The position numbers and the translations under genes are program-made. From a virus, in IMG/VR virus record IMGVR_UViG_3300021061_000026, positions 1 to 45,500 of that record: DNA of 45,500 nt; one strand, given 5' to 3'. The notes below the pieces were generated by a model. That model saw nothing but the letters and a program-made list of their open reading frames with translations. It was not told the origin of the DNA and did no database searches. Of the stretch, positions 5,809-28,269 are shown in pieces. The stretch's first letter is position 1; the number at the start of each line of letters is the position of its first letter.

Positions 5809-6144
5809 ATGCTGCGACGATTGCTCGACTGGTGGCGCGGCAAGCCCAACTTGGGCAAGCGCTCGCCGAAATGGCGGAAGGTCAGGGCTGAGCACCTGAA
5901 AAGCTACCCATGCTGCGCGGCCTGCGGTGGAACCAAGAAGCTCGAAGTTCATCACATACTTCCGTTCCACCTGTTCCCCGCGCAAGAGCTGTGCCGGGAC
6001 AACCTGATGACGCTGTGCGAGGCCAGAGGCTGCCACCTCATCTTCGGCCACGTTTGGAGTTGGAAGGGATGGAACCCGACTGCGGTAGAGGACGCTCTGA
6101 AGTTTCGTGAGAAAAGGCGAACGCTGGACTTCATCCTGAAGTGA
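5809..6144 (+). CDS. HNH endonuclease
   Basis: This 111-residue protein has the treble-clef pattern of HNH nucleases. CAAC is at 36-39, the catalytic VHHILPFH at 47-54, the central Asn at 65 (DNLMTLC), and the second metal pair is C70 with CH at 75-76 followed by GH at 80-81. Small HNH proteins near terminase genes often take part in DNA packaging in other phages; this one lies about 4 kb upstream of the terminase. It is close in spacing to both neighbours and probably cotranscribed. The motif set looks intact. Confidence 0.85.
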   Translation: MLRRLLDWWRGKPNLGKRSPKWRKVRAEHLKSYPCCAACGGTKKLEVHHILPFHLFPAQELCRDNLMTLCEARGCHLIFGHVWSWKGWNPTAVEDALKFREKRRTLDFILK

Positions 6145-6151
6145 CGCTGCC

Positions 6152-7402
6152 ATGTCACGCTGCCTACTACTCCTGCTGCTGATCGCCTCGCCGGCGCTGG
6201 GCCAGTACACGCGCCCGGCGGACGGCTGACTGCTTCCGCCTAGCGCGGAGTTGCCGCGCCCCGGAAACGGACGTCCCGAATACGCGGACTACATCCCGGC
6301 CGATCTGGTTGCCGCGTCGGTCAAGATCCGCATGCAAGGCGGCTACGGCGGCTCTGGGACGGTGATCCACGTCGATCCGCAGCAAGGCGCTGCGATGGTG
6401 CTGACGAACAAGCACGTTGTCGAGAAGGGTAACGGCATCGCCATCGTCACCTTCCCCTCGGGTCACGAGTTCGAGGGAGAGGTGATCGGCTACGACAAGA
6501 CGGGCGCGGATCTCGCGGCCATCGCCATTCCCGCTGACGCCTCGACGCCATTCGTCCCGGTCGCCAAGAGCTACCCACTCAAGGGCACTGGCATCTGCCA
6601 AGTGGGCTACGGCGGCGGGCAGATGCAGCGCCGCAGTGGGTTCATTGCTGGCTACCGCGAAAGGTCGCCGCACTACAACCTGATGCTGAGCTTCCAGGTC
6701 ATCAGCGGGGACAGCGGCTCGGGAGTGTTCATCCTTAAGACGAAGGAGCTGTGCGGCGTGGTCTGGGGCGGGCCGGACTACGACAACAGCGGCTATTTCG
6801 AGCCGCAAGCTGTCACCCTCGTAAACATCCACCGCTTCGTAGACGCTTGCCTGCCGAGGCTCTGCCCGCCGCGCCGAGGCTCGCCACGTCCGCCGTCAGG
6901 TGCTCGCCCGCCATCAGGCGTCCGCCCTCCGTCCGGCAACGGCCCGCCGATCATCGAGGTGCCTCCTGGGAGTCCTGGACAGCCAACGCAACCCGTTCAG
7001 CCGCCGGCCGTGACGCCTCCTGAACGCACGGGGCCGGTGATCGACCGGATCCGTGACGAGATCAAGAAGGAGTTGGAGGCCGAGAAGAAGGCGCTCATTG
7101 CGGTGCTGATCCAGATTCAGACCGACATTGCTGAACTGAAGTCGCGGAAGGTGGACAAGGGAGAAAAAGGTGACCGTGGACCGGCTGGACCACAAGGACC
7201 GGCAGGCCCTCCGGGACGAGACGGCAAAGACGGAGACACAACGGCACTGCAAGCCGAAGTAGCGGCGCTACGAAACGAGCTAAACGCCCTGCGTGCTCAG
7301 CGGCAGATATGCGAGCTGCTCGACGCCAAGGGCACAGTGATCCAGCGTTCGGAGTTCGGCCCGGGGGAACCCTTGCGCATCCAACTAATCCCGGTGAAGT
7401 GA
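6152..7402 (+). CDS. Trypsin-like serine protease with collagen-like tail; signal peptide separated by in-frame TGA
   Basis: One frame runs from ATG 6152 to TGA 7400-7402 and is interrupted only by TGA at 6227-6229. Codons 1-25 encode a classic signal peptide (MSRCLLLLLLIASPALGQ). After the TGA come a chymotrypsin-fold protease, a Pro-rich hinge, a helical coil, nine uninterrupted Gly-X-Y triplets (GEKGDRGPAG and on), a second coiled coil and a short C-terminal domain. Counted from TTG 6251, an alternative start, the triad is H55 (LTNKHVV), D87 (GADLAAI) and S155 (GDSGSG); the collagen part spans about 304-330. All catalytic residues are intact. The TGA is followed by C, a weak stop context in E. 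coli, so read-through is possible. A recent nonsense mutation, probably of a TGG, or a sequence error is equally possible. TTG 6251 has no well-spaced ribosome-binding site and would give a leaderless cytosolic protease. Confidence 0.75.
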
Positions 7403-8323: not shown

Positions 8324-8788
8324 GTGAGGCGACTGACCATCATCCTCTGCCTGTTCGCGTCTGGTTGTGGTCGCACCGACCCAGGATGGAGCGATGCCGA
8401 ATGGGATCGCATCCACGCACAGAACGCCGAGCGGCGCAAGAAGGCCGCCGAGGATAGCGCGCGTCGGCTTGTGGAGCAAAAAGGCTATGGCGAGACGATG
8501 CGCAAACTTGCGGCACTGCCTCCGCCGGATGATTTCCAGATAGGCGACAGGGTTGACATCAACGCCTTTTACGAAGTTCGCTGCGCCACCGTCCTGGCGA
8601 TTGCAGATGGCCTCTACACGGTGCGATACGACCGCCTAGTTGACAACCGCTATCAGACGTTTACGCACCAATTTGTTCGCCGCGAACTGTCTCATGAACG
8701 GCGAGACGTATCGGTGCCTTCGCTTGACGGGAAGCGTTGGGAAACGGTTGCGGTGTACGTCAAGAATCTTCCGCCGGAGAAGCAATGA
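8324..8788 (+). CDS. Lipoprotein with SH3/Tudor-like domain
   Basis: The 154-residue protein starts at GTG 8324. The N-terminus MRRLTIILCLFASGCGRTD is a short lipoprotein signal with lipobox ASGC, so Cys15 is probably lipidated and the protein sits in the envelope. A helical, charged region (about 22-65) leads to a beta domain at about 70-120 that begins FQIGDRVDINAFYE. This matches the start of the domain in the membrane protein at 4865-5530. An outer-membrane lipoprotein near inner-membrane coiled-coil proteins fits a spanin-like arrangement, but the proteins are longer than usual o-spanins. The role is inferred. Confidence 0.65.
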   Translation: MRRLTIILCLFASGCGRTDPGWSDAEWDRIHAQNAERRKKAAEDSARRLVEQKGYGETMRKLAALPPPDDFQIGDRVDINAFYEVRCATVLAIADGLYTVRYDRLVDNRYQTFTHQFVRRELSHERRDVSVPSLDGKRWETVAVYVKNLPPEKQ

Positions 8789-8946: not shown

Positions 8947-9099
8947 ATGTACACGACGCTCATAGTCCTGGTGACGCTGGCTGACGTGGCGATGTTCCCT
9001 TCGGAGGACATCTGCCGCAAGCAGTACGAACTCGCCGGCACATACCTGCGCGAGCGCGAGGCGGACCGGGATATGTGGGGCGGGTGGCAGCGTCACTAA
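8947..9099 (+). CDS. Small hypothetical protein with hydrophobic N-terminus
   Basis: ATG 8947 opens 50 codons to TAA at 9097-9099, beginning MYTTLIVLVTLADVAMFPSE. The first 18 residues are hydrophobic and could be a signal or membrane anchor; the rest is charged and helical (LAGTYLRERE). It lies 3 bases after the previous gene. No clear ribosome-binding site is visible, so the call rests on spacing and sequence character. Confidence 0.4.
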   Translation: MYTTLIVLVTLADVAMFPSEDICRKQYELAGTYLREREADRDMWGGWQRH

Positions 9100-9102
9100 G
9101 AG

Positions 9103-9231
9103 GTGCGTATCGCCCGTTTGAGGCATCAGGTGTGGTTCGCCGCGTGGTGGGTGACATGGAAGGACGCGACCTGGGACGACCGCATGCGCTGGGCAGTGAG
9201 GTTCCGGGAGATCCAGAGGGAACTCGAATGA
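9103..9231 (+). CDS. Possible 42-residue Trp-rich peptide
   Basis: GTG 9103 opens a 42-codon frame that ends in TGA at 9229-9231, overlapping the ATG of the next gene. It contains VWFAAWWVTWKDATWDDRM and a basic helical end. Five tryptophans in a short stretch suggest a membrane-interface helix. Start-site evidence is weak, but the precise ATGA overlap with the next gene supports translation. Confidence 0.4.
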   Translation: MRIARLRHQVWFAAWWVTWKDATWDDRMRWAVRFREIQRELE

Positions 9232-9668
9232 AACGCCGCTACCACCTCCTCGCCGCCGTCGCCGTCGCGGCGCTGATCTTCTGCCTCAACCTCCTGGTGA
9301 ACGGCCAGACGCGCCTTGAGGAGACGAAGCCTTCAGGCGACATCACGGGCTACTACTCGTGCAAGGGCATCGAAACCGGGGGCAAGCAGTACAGCGGGGT
9401 CTGCGTCATCTACCGGCGCGGGGAAGTCTACCTCGTGACCTGGACCACCTCGGGAGGCTCGTTCTCCGGCGTTGGTATTCGGGTCGGCGACACGCTTTCG
9501 GTGGGCTGGTCGGCTCCTGTCGAGGGGAAGGTACTGAAGGGCGTCAACCAGTACAAGCTCGACGGCAAGACCCTGAACGGACGCTGGGCGACGGCTCCCG
9601 GAAACGGGCAAGTGCAAACCGAGACGTTGGTGTGGCTCAAGGATCTCGACAAGGAAGAGGACGAGTGA
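9228..9668 (+). CDS. Secreted or membrane-anchored beta-domain protein
   Basis: The protein has 146 residues from ATG 9228. An N-terminal hydrophobic segment (about 7-27, AAVAVAALIFCLNLLVNG) may be a signal anchor. The remainder is a compact beta domain with GYYSCKGIETGGKQYSGVCV and, later, GVGIRVGDTLSVGW and LNGRW. This pattern of two Cys and repeated Gly/Tyr/Trp resembles small periplasmic bacterial domains of unknown function that I have seen in host genomes, so it may have been acquired from a host. It closes the block of envelope-associated genes before the packaging block. Confidence 0.6.
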   Translation: MKRRYHLLAAVAVAALIFCLNLLVNGQTRLEETKPSGDITGYYSCKGIETGGKQYSGVCVIYRRGEVYLVTWTTSGGSFSGVGIRVGDTLSVGWSAPVEGKVLKGVNQYKLDGKTLNGRWATAPGNGQVQTETLVWLKDLDKEEDE

Positions 9669-9736: not shown

Positions 9737-10234
9737 ATGCCGTCGTCACCAGAAGCCAAGAAAGCCCGCAAGGACCTGCGCAAGGGCCTAAAGGACGTAT
9801 TCGACGGCCGGGACACGGAAGTAGATGTCGTCGAGCTGGCCCGGGCCCTGTGGCGCAAAGCCGGGGGCATGGACCAACTGGCAAGCCGGCTCTGGGAGGC
9901 ATACGACTCGTCCGACCCCAAGAGCCAGTATGCCCAGCGCATGCTGAGCATGTGCATGACGCTATGGACCACTGCGACTCCCAATGAAGAGGAGCGGAGC
10001 CGGTTCAAGAATCTGTCGGACGCGGAGTTGGAGCAGACGATCAAGGAAGCCATGCCCACGGAATCGGAAGTGGTCAAGGCACTGGAAGCCAAGGTAGCCG
10101 TCCTCGAAAAGCTCGTGGAGGGCTACCGGCAACTGTACGGCGAACTAGATGCTCGACACGGTACTGACATGCCCGGAAGTGGACACGGCGAAGCTGAAGG
10201 CTTTGCTGGCGGAGAAAGCCTCCCGCCGGCTTGA
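9737..10234 (+). CDS. Candidate small terminase subunit
   Basis: The 165-residue protein starts at ATG 9737 behind GGGGTG and lies directly upstream of the large terminase. It is helical, with a basic start (AKKARKDLRKGL) that could bind DNA. A central helical part (VDVVELARALWRKAGG) is followed by a coiled coil (ALEAKVAVLEKLVEGYRQLY) suitable for oligomerisation. Those are features of small terminases, which recognise DNA and form rings. The last 29 codons overlap the large terminase gene. No family motif proves the call; position is the main evidence. Confidence 0.55.
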   Translation: MPSSPEAKKARKDLRKGLKDVFDGRDTEVDVVELARALWRKAGGMDQLASRLWEAYDSSDPKSQYAQRMLSMCMTLWTTATPNEEERSRFKNLSDAELEQTIKEAMPTESEVVKALEAKVAVLEKLVEGYRQLYGELDARHGTDMPGSGHGEAEGFAGGESLPPA

Positions 10235-11756
10235 AGCCCTCAACCTCTACGAGCCCACACCCCTCCAGGCGCCGTTTCACCACTGCACCGCCGCCGAAAA
10301 AATCATTCGGGGCGGCAACCGCAGCGGGAAATCGGTCGCTTCCGCCGTGGAGTGCGCGCGCTGCGTCACGAACCAAGATCCCTTCAACAAGTACCCCAAG
10401 GAAGGCATCTGCTACGTCGTCGGCAAACAGGGACGCGAAGTCGGCCAGGTGTTGTGGCGCATGCTCGGTAGAGCAGGAGCATTCAAGATCATCCGCGACA
10501 AGGTGACGGGTCTGTGGCGCTCCTACCGGCCGTTCGACGAGTCCGATCTGGAAAGAGCCAAGGAAGCGCGTCCGTCCCCTCCCTTGATCCCGCCGCGGCT
10601 CATCTCGGAAATCGTCTGGGAGAACAAGAAAGAGAATCTGCCCAAGATCGTGCGACTCGTGACAGGGTGGGAGATTCACTTCTTCTCAGGGGAAGCGGCT
10701 CCTCCGCAGGGCACGACGGTTGACTTTGCCTGGTTCGACGAGGAAATCGAGCATAAGGCTTGGTACACGGAAGTCAGCGCGCGTCTGATCGACCGCAACG
10801 GCATCTTCCAGTGGTCCGCCACTCCTCAAGCCGGCACCGAGCAGCTCTATGAATTGCACTGCCGTGCCGAGGAGCAGAAGTTCCAGGCTGAGAAAACCAT
10901 CGAGGAGTTCGAGCTGTCCTTCGAGGACAACCCTCACCTCACCAAGAAACAGAAAGACCTGTTCAAGGAGAAGATGTCGGAGGACGAGCGTTTGGTGCGC
11001 GTGCATGGTCAATTCGCCATGCTCACTTCCATCGTCTATCCCGAGTTCAAAGCCGACGTCCACGAGGTCGAATACTTCGACATCCCCGACACCTGGACGC
11101 GCTACGTCTCCATCGACCCCGGAAGGCAAATCTGCGCCGCGATGTTCCTGGCCGTGCCTCCCCCCGACAAGGGGGACTACGCCTACGGCTACGACGAGCT
11201 CTACATCCCCAACTGCGATGCGGAGCAGTTCGGCGAGCGCATGCGGGAGAAGTGCGGGGGGCAGACATTCCAAGCGTTCCTCATCGACCATCAGGAAGGC
11301 CGCAAGGTTGAAGCGGGATCGGGTCTGTCGATCGAGGAGCAGTATTCCCGCGCCCTACGGAAGCGCAAGATCGCCTCGGCGCTGACGGGAAGCATGTTCC
11401 TTCACGGAGACTCGAACAAACAAGCCGGTGTGGAGGCGTGCAGGTTGTGGCTGAGGCAGAGAGAAGAAGATGCCGAGCCGAAGCTGAGGATCATCAAGGG
11501 GCGGATGCCAAACTTCGTCATGGAGATCAAGCGCTATCGCTTCAAGCGTCTCCAGACGGTGAATGGAGCGATTGTCTCCGATGAGACCGATGACCGCGGG
11601 CGCTGCCATCTGATGCACTGCTTCAGATACCTCGTGCAGTACAACCCGCGCTATGTGAAGCCTCAGCCCAAAAGGGACAAGAACTACGCGGTGCTGGCGA
11701 TGGAGCGGAAGCGCAAGAAGAAGGACCAGTACGTTCGGTTAGGACCAGGAGCTTAG
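10149..11756 (+). CDS. terL: Terminase large subunit
   Basis: The 535-residue protein has the ATPase and nuclease motifs of phage large terminases, the packaging motors. Walker A is GGNRSGKS at 55-62. Walker B is VDFAWFDEE at 191-199, with D197/E198 as the likely catalytic pair. The coupling motif SAT is at 223-225. The RNase H-like nuclease part shows acidic residues in YVSIDPG (D323), FLIDHQ (D380) and near 480-482 (DETDDRG). It sits between the candidate small terminase and the portal, as expected. ATG 10149 lies 86 bases inside the upstream gene; no later start keeps the N-terminal helix. Confidence 0.95.
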   Translation: MLDTVLTCPEVDTAKLKALLAEKASRRLEALNLYEPTPLQAPFHHCTAAEKIIRGGNRSGKSVASAVECARCVTNQDPFNKYPKEGICYVVGKQGREVGQVLWRMLGRAGAFKIIRDKVTGLWRSYRPFDESDLERAKEARPSPPLIPPRLISEIVWENKKENLPKIVRLVTGWEIHFFSGEAAPPQGTTVDFAWFDEEIEHKAWYTEVSARLIDRNGIFQWSATPQAGTEQLYELHCRAEEQKFQAEKTIEEFELSFEDNPHLTKKQKDLFKEKMSEDERLVRVHGQFAMLTSIVYPEFKADVHEVEYFDIPDTWTRYVSIDPGRQICAAMFLAVPPPDKGDYAYGYDELYIPNCDAEQFGERMREKCGGQTFQAFLIDHQEGRKVEAGSGLSIEEQYSRALRKRKIASALTGSMFLHGDSNKQAGVEACRLWLRQREEDAEPKLRIIKGRMPNFVMEIKRYRFKRLQTVNGAIVSDETDDRGRCHLMHCFRYLVQYNPRYVKPQPKRDKNYAVLAMERKRKKKDQYVRLGPGA

Positions 11757-11760
11757 CCCC

Positions 11761-12171
11761 ATGATGCAAAAGACGTTCAACGGCCTCGGGATTGTGGATG
11801 TGGCGGTGAAGGCGAACGAAGCCTACGCGATTGCCACGGATGGAGAGCCGACCTACGAAGAGGACCGCTGGGAAGCGGTTGCGGCCAAGGCGATCTGGCT
11901 GATGGACCCGCGCGAAGGTCGAGAGGTGGAAGTCTCAGCCAAGGACGCCGCGGCGGCGCTGTACCAGTCGTACATGGGTGCGCCCTCGGAGGACTATGCA
12001 CTGTTCTTTCAGCAGCCCAAGCCAGTGAAGGTGGCTTGGGAGGCGGTGGCGCGATTCCTGTTCGACCTGCTTACGTCGGACGTTCCGACCTCAGTGACTT
12101 ACGAGCTGGTCCGCCCCTGGGTGGAATCGCAATTAGGAGATCTTCATGAGTTGGAAAATGCCTCACGTTGA
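11761..12171 (+). CDS. Hypothetical protein between terminase and portal
   Basis: The 136-residue protein starts at ATG 11761, or ATG 11764, with AGGAG at 11747-11751. It is helical and acidic, with EEDRWEAVAAKAIWLMDP and a WEAVARFLFDLL segment. There is no signal or membrane segment. Its place between terminase and portal hints at packaging or head assembly, but no family is recognised. The end overlaps the next gene by 26 bases. Confidence 0.7.
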   Translation: MMQKTFNGLGIVDVAVKANEAYAIATDGEPTYEEDRWEAVAAKAIWLMDPREGREVEVSAKDAAAALYQSYMGAPSEDYALFFQQPKPVKVAWEAVARFLFDLLTSDVPTSVTYELVRPWVESQLGDLHELENASR

Positions 12172-12490
12172 GCGCGGCACGACCGTTCGCTGGCACGACG
12201 GTGGTGATCTTGGCGAGCAGTGGGTGCCGGCCATCGTGACCAAGGTCAACGACGTCTCTGGCGAGCACGCGCGGCATGTGTGTCTCGCGGTGATCTATGC
12301 GGACAACATGTACTTCGTGGTCAAGGACGGCGTGCATCATCACGACGATCCGACCACTACGGACGCTGAAAAAACGCACGCGGGAACCTGGACTTACACC
12401 GACGAGCACAAGCGCATCGGCGAACTCCAGGCGCGTGTGGCGGCTCTGGAAGTGTTGCTCGAACCGGCCCCCAAGAAAACTGAGAAATGA
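12146..12490 (+). CDS. Hypothetical protein, beta domain plus coiled coil
   Basis: The 114-residue protein starts at ATG 12146 behind TTAGGAGA. The first 60 residues look like a small beta barrel (GTTVRWHDGG, EQWVPAIVTKVND), similar in style to the SH3/Tudor-like segments at 4865-5530 and 8324-8788. A His/Asp-rich stretch (VHHHDDP) follows, then a coiled coil (RIGELQARVAALEVLLEP). It overlaps both neighbours, the next in an ATGA. The function is unknown; a portal- or head-associated accessory is possible. Confidence 0.65.
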   Translation: MSWKMPHVERGTTVRWHDGGDLGEQWVPAIVTKVNDVSGEHARHVCLAVIYADNMYFVVKDGVHHHDDPTTTDAEKTHAGTWTYTDEHKRIGELQARVAALEVLLEPAPKKTEK

Positions 12491-14943
12491 CCGAAACCCC
12501 ATACAAGGCGATCAAAGAGCACTGGCTCAAGAAGATCCGGCTGGGCTTGGATCACAAGAAGGATTTCCAGAAGGACGCCGACGAAGGAATGAAGTTCTTC
12601 AACGGCCCTTACGACTTCCTTTACGATCTCAAGCGCTCCGAGATGAAGGGGGATTTCGTCTACGCCGGCCCCGAAGGGATGCCGCGCCCAAGATTTTGTA
12701 TGACCCACAACAAGGTCGCCGAAGCGATCCAGTTGTTCGGGCCGTACCTGTATCACACGAACCCCGTCAGAACGATCACTCCTCGTCAGCTATTCATGCC
12801 GAGCGTCGAGTTGTTCGGAGATCCGAACGACCCGATGGTGCAGGCGCAGCACGCGATGACGGTGCAGCAAGTAGTGGTGGGAAAGCACACGGACCAGACG
12901 CGCGCTGATCTGATGCTGGCCTACCAGAACTACACCCCTGTCGCCACGGACCTGAAGTCGAACGCACGCCGGACCATCGACGAGGCGTTCATCAAGGGCA
13001 TGGGTCTGTTGCGGACGCAGGTCTACCAACCCCCGGGAACTCCGTGGAAGATGGTCGCCAGTTTCCACGAGTCGGTGGACAACTATGTCATGGACCCGGA
13101 CGTGGAGAACCGGGACGACTGCAAGTGGACCGCGCTGTGGTGCCTCCAACCCGCATGGCAGGTCGAGGAAGAATACGGCCTGCCTCCGGGGTCACTGAGG
13201 GGCAAAGGCTCAGCCGAGAGCTACGACGAGAAGGCTACTCAGGAGACCAAACCTCCAGCGCATTCGGATAAGCAGAACGGCCGCACCAACGACCTGATCG
13301 GCTACTGGAAGGTGTGGTCGAAGATGGGCCTTGGGGGGAAACTGTCCGGCATCGATCCGTCGGTGTACGAGGTCGATGTGCATGGCAACTACGTGTTCCT
13401 GGCGATCTGCGAGAAGTGCGACTACCCGCTCAACATCCCCCCGGAATTGTGGGCGGACCCGATGCAGGTGGGCGAGCGAGTGCAGTGGGAGACGCCTTAT
13501 TGGGCGGACGACGCCTGGCCCTGCACACCGTTCATCTTCCATGAAGTGCCGCGCAAGATCTGGCCCATGAGCCACTTCAAGCCCGCCATGGGAGAGCTGA
13601 AGTTCCTCAACTGGGTGTACTCGTTCCTGGCCTCGAAGGTGGGAACAGCTTGTCGGGACCTGATCGTCTGCGCCAAGAGAGCCTCGGAGGAGATCAAGCG
13701 GGCGATTGTGAGCGGGACGGACTACGAGCTGATCGAGATTGAAGCGTCCACCGGAAAGATCGGTGAGATCGTCGAGTTCCTTCAGCATCCTCCGTTTCAT
13801 GGCGACATCCTGAAGGTCGTCATGATGGTCAACGAAGCCTTCGAGAGGCGGGTGGGGCTCACGGAGCTGATGTACGGCTCAACCCCGGTGCAGATGCGGT
13901 CTGCGGAAGAGGCCGCGGTCAAGGCGAACCAACTTCGGGTGCGGCCGGATGATTTGGCGAACAAGGTCGAAGATGCGATGACCGATGTGGCGCGCCGGGA
14001 AGCGCTGGCGGCGCGGTGGAACCTGGAACCGCAGGACGTGGAGCCGATCTTGGGTCCGGTTGGGGCACAACTCTGGGGGCAGTTCGTGACCCCGACCGAC
14101 CCGAGCATGCTTCTGCATCAACTGGAATACCGCATCGAAGCGGGTTCAGCCCGGAAGCCGAACAAGGACAAGCAAGTCGGGGACGCGACCGCGGCGATGC
14201 AGAACGTGTTCCAGCCGCTGTTCCAGTATTCGATGCAGTCCGGGGACGTGGGCCCGACCAACGCAGTCTTGGAGATGTGGGCCAAGGCCAATGACATCGA
14301 GCCTGAGAAGCTGATGCTCCAGCCCCCGATGATGCCACCAGTCGATCCGGCAACGGGGATGCCGATGGCGCCCACGCCCGACCCGATGGCTCAACCGATG
14401 CCTGCCGAACCAATGATGCAGGAGCCGGCGCTGCCAGCATTGCCCGAGTTGCCGCCTGTTCCTCCGACCCCGCCGGTGACGGTGAACATCAACGTGGTGG
14501 GTCAGCCGCAGCAGTCGTTCAACGTGACGACTCCGCAGCAGACGATCAACGTCCAGTCCCCACCGCAGACGGTGAATGTGGGGATGCCCACCGTCACCGT
14601 GCCCCCAGCGCAGGTGACGGTGCAGCCAGCGGTGCCGAACATCAACGTCCAGCCAGCGAATCCGGCGATCAACGTGGCTGCATCTCCGCCGAACATCAAC
14701 GTGCAGCCGCCGCCGATCCAGATTCCTCCCGCGCCTCCCGCGGTGGTGAACGTGCAGACGCCGCCGCCGATCGTGAACGTAGCCCCACCGCCGGCTCCGG
14801 TGGTGAACGTGCAGGTGCCCGAACGTCAGCCGGAAGAGACGGAGTACGAGGTCGTGCGGGATGGAGCCAACGACGTCATGGGCATCAAGAAGGTGCCAAA
14901 GAAGAAACCTGACGAGGACAAGCCCAAGAGGAAGGGTAAGTAG
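12487..14943 (+). CDS. Portal protein with Pro/Asn-Val repeat tail
   Basis: The 818-residue protein follows the terminase, and its size and mixed alpha/beta sequence fit portals of short-tailed phages, which form the dodecameric DNA gate. Residues 1-620 form the portal body, for example AIQLFGPYLYHTNPVRTITP near 80-100 and the MRSAEEAAVKANQLR stretch near 475-490. From about 659 to 780 the sequence changes to Pro-rich repeats built on 'NVQ.P.' or 'INV..PP'. A basic, Lys-rich end closes the protein. Such NV/P tails occur in other phage structural proteins. The start overlaps the previous stop. Confidence 0.85.
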   Translation: MTETPYKAIKEHWLKKIRLGLDHKKDFQKDADEGMKFFNGPYDFLYDLKRSEMKGDFVYAGPEGMPRPRFCMTHNKVAEAIQLFGPYLYHTNPVRTITPRQLFMPSVELFGDPNDPMVQAQHAMTVQQVVVGKHTDQTRADLMLAYQNYTPVATDLKSNARRTIDEAFIKGMGLLRTQVYQPPGTPWKMVASFHESVDNYVMDPDVENRDDCKWTALWCLQPAWQVEEEYGLPPGSLRGKGSAESYDEKATQETKPPAHSDKQNGRTNDLIGYWKVWSKMGLGGKLSGIDPSVYEVDVHGNYVFLAICEKCDYPLNIPPELWADPMQVGERVQWETPYWADDAWPCTPFIFHEVPRKIWPMSHFKPAMGELKFLNWVYSFLASKVGTACRDLIVCAKRASEEIKRAIVSGTDYELIEIEASTGKIGEIVEFLQHPPFHGDILKVVMMVNEAFERRVGLTELMYGSTPVQMRSAEEAAVKANQLRVRPDDLANKVEDAMTDVARREALAARWNLEPQDVEPILGPVGAQLWGQFVTPTDPSMLLHQLEYRIEAGSARKPNKDKQVGDATAAMQNVFQPLFQYSMQSGDVGPTNAVLEMWAKANDIEPEKLMLQPPMMPPVDPATGMPMAPTPDPMAQPMPAEPMMQEPALPALPELPPVPPTPPVTVNINVVGQPQQSFNVTTPQQTINVQSPPQTVNVGMPTVTVPPAQVTVQPAVPNINVQPANPAINVAASPPNINVQPPPIQIPPAPPAVVNVQTPPPIVNVAPPPAPVVNVQVPERQPEETEYEVVRDGANDVMGIKKVPKKKPDEDKPKRKGK

Positions 14944-27781: not shown

Positions 27782-28269
27782 TGTTCGCACAGCAGCGCAT
27801 TCGCCTTCTGCGCGAGGAGAAATGGACGCCTGACGAACTGGCGCGAGAGATCTACGCCATGATGGGGCCGGATGTTCCCCTTGAGCATCACGGCCAGATC
27901 ACGCTTCATGCCCCGGCGAACGGCGCGCCTCTGGTCATCAAGGGTCTTGCGGTGGGAGACGTGATTATCCAGTTACCCAATCGAGAGGGAGCGGTGGAAG
28001 ATGACGACGCCCCGGTGCTCGACGTGGTGGCTGCGGAAACGGACAGCACAACCGAAAACCAACGGACCGGGATCGCCGGGGAGATTCTGTCTGGGACGCA
28101 CCCGGACTACTCCGTGCGGATTTACCCCGAAGGGCTGTCGGCAGATACCGAAACCGTGACCGTTAAACAGCTATCCGGTGTCTCTGGGGTGGCGCTGCAA
28201 GCGGGAACCTGGGTCATCGTCTACGTGGACGTGAACGGGGACTACTTCATGAACGTGCCGGTGTGGTGA
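27781..28269 (+). CDS. Hypothetical virion-associated protein
   Basis: The protein has 162 residues from ATG 27781, in a GTGATG overlap with the nozzle-like gene. A short helical start (QRIRLLREEKWTPDELAREI) is followed by beta-rich sequence with an acidic linker (EGAVEDDDAPVLDVV) and a closing VIVYVDVNGDYFMNVPVW. The helix plus beta domain would suit a tail-bound small spike or collar protein. No motif is recognised. Confidence 0.6.
   Translation: MFAQQRIRLLREEKWTPDELAREIYAMMGPDVPLEHHGQITLHAPANGAPLVIKGLAVGDVIIQLPNREGAVEDDDAPVLDVVAAETDSTTENQRTGIAGEILSGTHPDYSVRIYPEGLSADTETVTVKQLSGVSGVALQAGTWVIVYVDVNGDYFMNVPVW

Follow-up and report, generated by a model that had tools for sequence, protein, structure and literature searches.

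Introduction

The A1 protein of phage Q-beta is a readthrough protein, and the leaky stop codon that gives rise to it was demonstrated by experiment. In E. coli, UGA followed by C is a weak termination context, and Gracilibacteria are a lineage in which TGA is read as glycine. Here we describe a gene that is interrupted by a TGA soon after its start. The gene lies at positions 6152–7402 of a 45,500-nucleotide stretch of viral DNA (hereafter the window), which corresponds to positions 1–45,500 of IMG/VR record IMGVR_UViG_3300021061_000026, a record classed as linear. The locus resembles that of A1 in that a UGA is followed by an intact open frame; the stop in the window, however, is only hypothetically leaky and is not conserved.

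The part of the gene that follows the stop is predicted to encode a protease, for which the HtrA-Deg proteases are the closest described counterparts, with DegS the nearest by fold. The likeness consists of the Trypsin_2 domain, the His-Asp-Ser triad and the fold, whereas in place of a PDZ domain the window protein has coiled coils and a Gly-X-Y run. In the open-licence literature we found neither a phage exported trypsin-collagen protein nor a phage signal peptide combined with a leaky stop, findings that leave absence in print unproven in both cases. The evidence presented below leads us to think it very probable that 6152–7402 is a gene disabled by a stop-gain at codon 26, be it a real allele or an assembly error.

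Results

The ATG at 6152–6154 (+ strand) lies seven bases past the stop of an upstream HNH-like gene (5809–6144, + strand) and is preceded by an in-frame stop (TGA 6137). It opens a run of 25 codons (MSRCLLLLLLIASPALGQYTRPADG; 6152–6226) that ends at TGA 6227–6229, the next base being C, and beyond this TGA the same frame is open for 390 codons, up to TGA 7400–7402. An earlier, sequence-only reading had described a TGA that interrupts a frame otherwise unbroken to 7402, and our count of 25 plus 390 codons shows that description to be exact.

The same reading had taken ATG 6152 to open a strong signal peptide, and two measures bear this out. With a simple signal-peptide score that takes in a basic residue, a hydrophobic core and small residues at the cleavage site, ATG 6152 ranked second among the window's 4135 start codons, both strands included. 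Moreover, the 25 codons that precede the stop are coding-like in their codon usage, which fits that of the phage's genes; their score of 0.24 was reached by 2.8% of 1160 out-of-frame 25-codon stretches and is ordinary for coding DNA, as 27.6% of 232 coding stretches score no higher.

We scanned the window for stops flanked on either side by coding-like codons, the frame having to be open for 20 codons or more ahead of the stop and for 80 or more beyond it. Four sites were found: 6227 (+), 28267 (+), 14826 (−) and 23698 (−). The site at 28267 was rejected as a split gene because the ATG of a gene start comes immediately after it, as at a gene boundary, and the two sites on the minus strand, which lie opposite + strand frames, were rejected as reverse-strand shadows. 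The stop at 6227 is the only one in the window that clearly splits a gene. (Note that under a stricter threshold, used in an earlier scan, 6227 was narrowly missed, and the five sites obtained were all stops other than TGA.)

A single in-frame TGA within an otherwise intact gene is in keeping with UGA being a sense codon in the phage or its host. TGA, however, terminates 26 of 42 plausible genes (our own selection of + strand frames) and is the commonest stop in the window, and there is no other gene with a clear internal TGA. In addition, no tRNA genes were found in the window. The earlier view of a changed genetic code as unlikely is upheld by these findings, and we regard UGA as a sense codon here as extremely unlikely.

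The frame after the stop encodes a real and intact trypsin-fold protease, to judge both from its sequence and from a structural model. In particular, positions 6350–6760 (+ strand) matched the full length of the Pfam Trypsin_2 profile (PF13365, profile positions 1–144) with an E value of 3.4e-17 and a score of 64 bits against a cut-off of 27.6. An alignment of the window protein with three phage relatives shows no variation at the predicted catalytic residues His88, Asp120 and Ser188 (in read-through numbering). An AlphaFold model of 6251–6874, made with 15 relatives, had a mean pLDDT of 84.8 and a pTM of 0.85; Foldseek matched it to DegS/DegP, the top PDB match being DegS (E 3e-11, TM 0.68, ~20% identity). 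These findings agree with the sequence-only reading, which had noted a protease with all of its catalytic residues. The resemblance does not extend to membership of the HtrA/DegP/DegS subfamily: the NCBIfam DegP/HtrA model scored 35.9 bits against 416.2, and a Pfam scan of the window protein found no PDZ domain. (PADLOC gave weak matches only to the protease, such as LmuA at E 4.1e-5; we took this match to reflect a shared protease fold and rejected an assignment to LmuA.)

Between the signal peptide and the protease domain is an open linker (6230–6343, + strand) in which the first possible later start is TTG 6251. On the other side of the domain, a proline-rich linker and a coiled coil (6872–7150), read by eye in the translation, are followed by a short collagen-like Gly-X-Y run (7157–7234) and by a second coiled coil, also recognized by eye, with the C-terminal segment and the natural stop (7235–7402). 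The Pfam Collagen model scored 22.1 bits in the window protein against a cut-off of 27.2 (E 1.3e-4). The description of the product as a protease-collagen protein thus stands as regards the protease; the Gly-X-Y run is visible by eye, yet falls under the Pfam cut-off.

Relatives of the protein were found in other phages. A profile built with two Planctomycetota proteins (L018 and L019) retrieved 35 loci in viral contigs (L035–L069), and a pattern that represents the Ser motif at the DNA level retrieved 96 loci, two of which, L117 and L074, encode related proteases (profile E values of 1.2e-34 and 5.5e-8, respectively). Together these make 37 phage loci in IMG/VR that encode Trypsin_2 proteases. 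Between L117 and the window protein, homology begins at residue 1 and continues through the collagen run (404 aligned columns, 33% identical, pair E 4e-44), and L117 has the proline-rich linker and coiled coil in the same order; in L074 both Trypsin_2 and Collagen score above the cut-off. Like the window protein, both have a signal peptide, Trypsin_2, a coiled coil and a collagen run.

The signal peptide and the protease are joined in one stop-free frame in 35 of the 35 loci with a complete N-terminus. (L064 and L065, which are truncated N-terminally, were left out of this count; 34 of the loci were checked by script and L117, which the script's motif missed, was checked by reading.) The 34 loci checked by script form 14 clusters at 90% identity, and with L117 there are at least 15. 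The exported Trypsin_2 proteases of IMG/VR phages thus differ from the window sequence in being without a stop after the signal peptide whenever the N-terminus is complete. The occurrence of the joined form in all complete phage relatives argues that the family consists of one protein and that the TGA is peculiar to the window sequence.

The relatives bear on two further explanations for the stop. The first is that the signal peptide belongs to a small gene of its own, which by chance shares the frame of a leaderless, unrelated protease gene behind it. This would accord with the stop that divides the two, but L117, a single protein, aligns to the one part as well as to the other, and the joined form is found in every complete relative; we consider separate genes very unlikely. 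The second is that re-initiation at TTG 6251, or at a start further on, yields a protease that lacks the signal peptide and acts within the cell. TTG 6251 is 21 bases past the stop, and a product begun there would retain the whole protease domain. Against this, TTG 6251 has no Shine-Dalgarno match, and every complete phage relative has a signal peptide, which makes an internal start decidedly unlikely. (Note that a Shine-Dalgarno match of at least four bases was found for 24 of the 42 plausible genes, compared with 22.8% of random places, and that the match of ATG 6152 is three bases.)

Some of the relatives have features of their own. In L040 (2099–3801) the gene for the exported trypsin-like protease begins within the last part of a class 3 lipase gene, and the protease is followed by a proline linker and a coiled coil; lying side by side, the lipase and the protease could be two enzymes that act on the host surface. 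In L058 (2809–3675) a signal peptide and half of a Trypsin_2 domain are followed in the same frame by a LysR substrate-binding domain. This is probably a chimeric contig, in which the signal peptide is still joined. Many of the relatives (L035–L069, L117 and L074) have a Cys-rich part between the signal peptide and the protease, which we take to be zinc-ribbon-like.

Conservation of the TGA among relatives, raised in the sequence-only reading as a mark of recoding, was not seen: none of the 35 complete phage relatives has a stop at this place (0/35). The closest relatives of the window protein are only ~33–43% identical to it, so that codon 26 itself cannot be aligned, a point that we counted against a stop-gain. 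When the stop was scored neutrally, codon 26 came to lie opposite Q36, Q31, H25 or E44 of L117, varying with the gap costs (five settings). A Trp of L117 was placed opposite the stop only when Trp had been written in beforehand (default alignment) and at none of the five neutral gap settings, and this placement was rejected. Because the placement of codon 26 shifts with the gap costs, the ancestral codon is not readable from these relatives.

The sequence-only reading had put forward either readthrough with two products or a fresh nonsense change. In the case of readthrough, a near-cognate tRNA would read the UGA at low frequency and give a short signal peptide together with a rare full-length exported protease. 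The downstream frame is indeed fully intact and free of the decay that a long-dead gene would show, which we counted against a stop-gain. The C that follows the UGA is also present as reported, but the supposedly weak context is not special here, as UGA-C terminates 6 of the 42 plausible genes (6 of the 26 that end in TGA). The 64 bases after the stop form a moderately stable RNA fold that is better than those of shuffled sequences (z −2.4; 3 of 200 shuffles as good), and this too was counted against a stop-gain. However, of 297 segments taken at points along the record, 6 had a z as low and 16 an energy as low, and an equally low z was obtained for 2 of 27 TGA sites at ordinary gene ends. A suppressor tRNA gene is absent from the window (suppressor tRNA or selenocysteine was rejected on the tRNA scan of the window by itself), and in 35 of 35 phage relatives there is no stop between the signal peptide and the protease. 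We therefore consider programmed readthrough unlikely. The same low probability attaches to the idea that a leaky UGA serves as a dose control, whereby few ribosomes would make a potentially harmful exported envelope protease.

Since the relatives are unbroken in 35 of 35 cases, a stop-gain is better supported than recoding. Of the two alternatives put forward earlier, the nonsense change thus gains support from the unbroken relatives, and recoding loses it through the lack of a conserved TGA.

Searches beyond the phage loci gave the following results. The two Planctomycetota chromosomal Trypsin_2 proteins, L018 and L019, are 35% identical to the window protein over the protease domain; they differ from it in that no collagen run was seen in their translations and no stop lies inside the match. 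When Planctomycetota genomes were searched with a protein query, 17 of 392 matched at an E value of 1e-5, none with an internal stop. A two-row profile matched 52 of the 392 genomes at 1e-8, and among the 57 matches listed, 3 had one internal stop, which suggests that a broken copy here and there may be normal for so wide a family. The kinship to Planctomycetota proteins gives only a hint, drawn from sequence, as to the host. No match was found among INPHARED phages, either with the window protein (E up to 5) or in a DNA search; a plasmid search gave two weak matches. Exact-peptide scans of viral contigs found no relative, and one match from them, L014, was rejected as an unrelated protein that shares only about eleven residues. 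A match in Gracilibacteria (L015/L017) was weak and was not used as evidence.

In the window at 10149–14943, TerL has only remote relatives in INPHARED (best ~24%). TerL and the next large gene, which we took to be the portal gene by its place and size, have relatives of 40–45% identity in IMG/VR (L002–L012). Judging from these similarities, the TerL/portal region would seem to belong to an uncharacterised phage lineage. In the 11 records with TerL/portal relatives, neither the protease protein (0/11) nor Trypsin_2 (0/11) was found; the Trypsin_2 search did detect the window itself. Conversely, TerL was found in 0 of 8 records with a protease locus (L040, L058, L035, L038, L048, L062, L054 and L046) and the portal in 0 of 3 (those of L117, L074 and L040), several of these records being fragments.

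Discussion

The stop-gain that we favor would have placed a stop at codon 26 of a single gene, the product of which is an exported, DegS-like protease with a trypsin fold, borne on a coiled-coil/collagen stalk. Ribosomes would make the 25-residue signal peptide and then terminate, and we infer a loss of product, such that the protease would be neither made in useful amounts nor exported. The change may be an error of metagenome assembly or a real allele, carried by the phage as a whole or by only part of its population. Because there is no second lesion in the 390 codons, the stop-gain would be recent. According to a published screen (PMC8629427), in-frame stops in pseudogenes most likely arise from single transitions.

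If the TGA is a mere stop-gain or an error, it is of little import beyond annotation; gene callers would give a leaderless protease and overlook the export of the family. If readthrough were true, the locus would offer one of few instances, for a DNA phage, in which readthrough of a stop controls export. The more interesting by-product of the analysis is the set of at least 15 clusters of phage-encoded, exported trypsin-like proteases, related to Planctomycetota proteins and some of them on collagen stalks. Judging by export and fold alone, the intact protein would pass into or through the host envelope and would cut envelope or surface proteins, and members of the family are possible candidates for enzymes that attack the envelope or alter the surface.

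Other genes in the window may be recorded here. At 9075–9668 is another gene that has a strong signal peptide, read from ATG 9228; a match to the LIC10280 family there scored 36.8 bits, under the cut-off of 100. A possible lipoprotein (MRRLTIILCLFASGCGRT) is encoded at 8324–8788, which belongs to the same group of small genes ahead of the terminase, and a gene for an FkbM-family methyltransferase (E 1.5e-17) lies at 785–1492.
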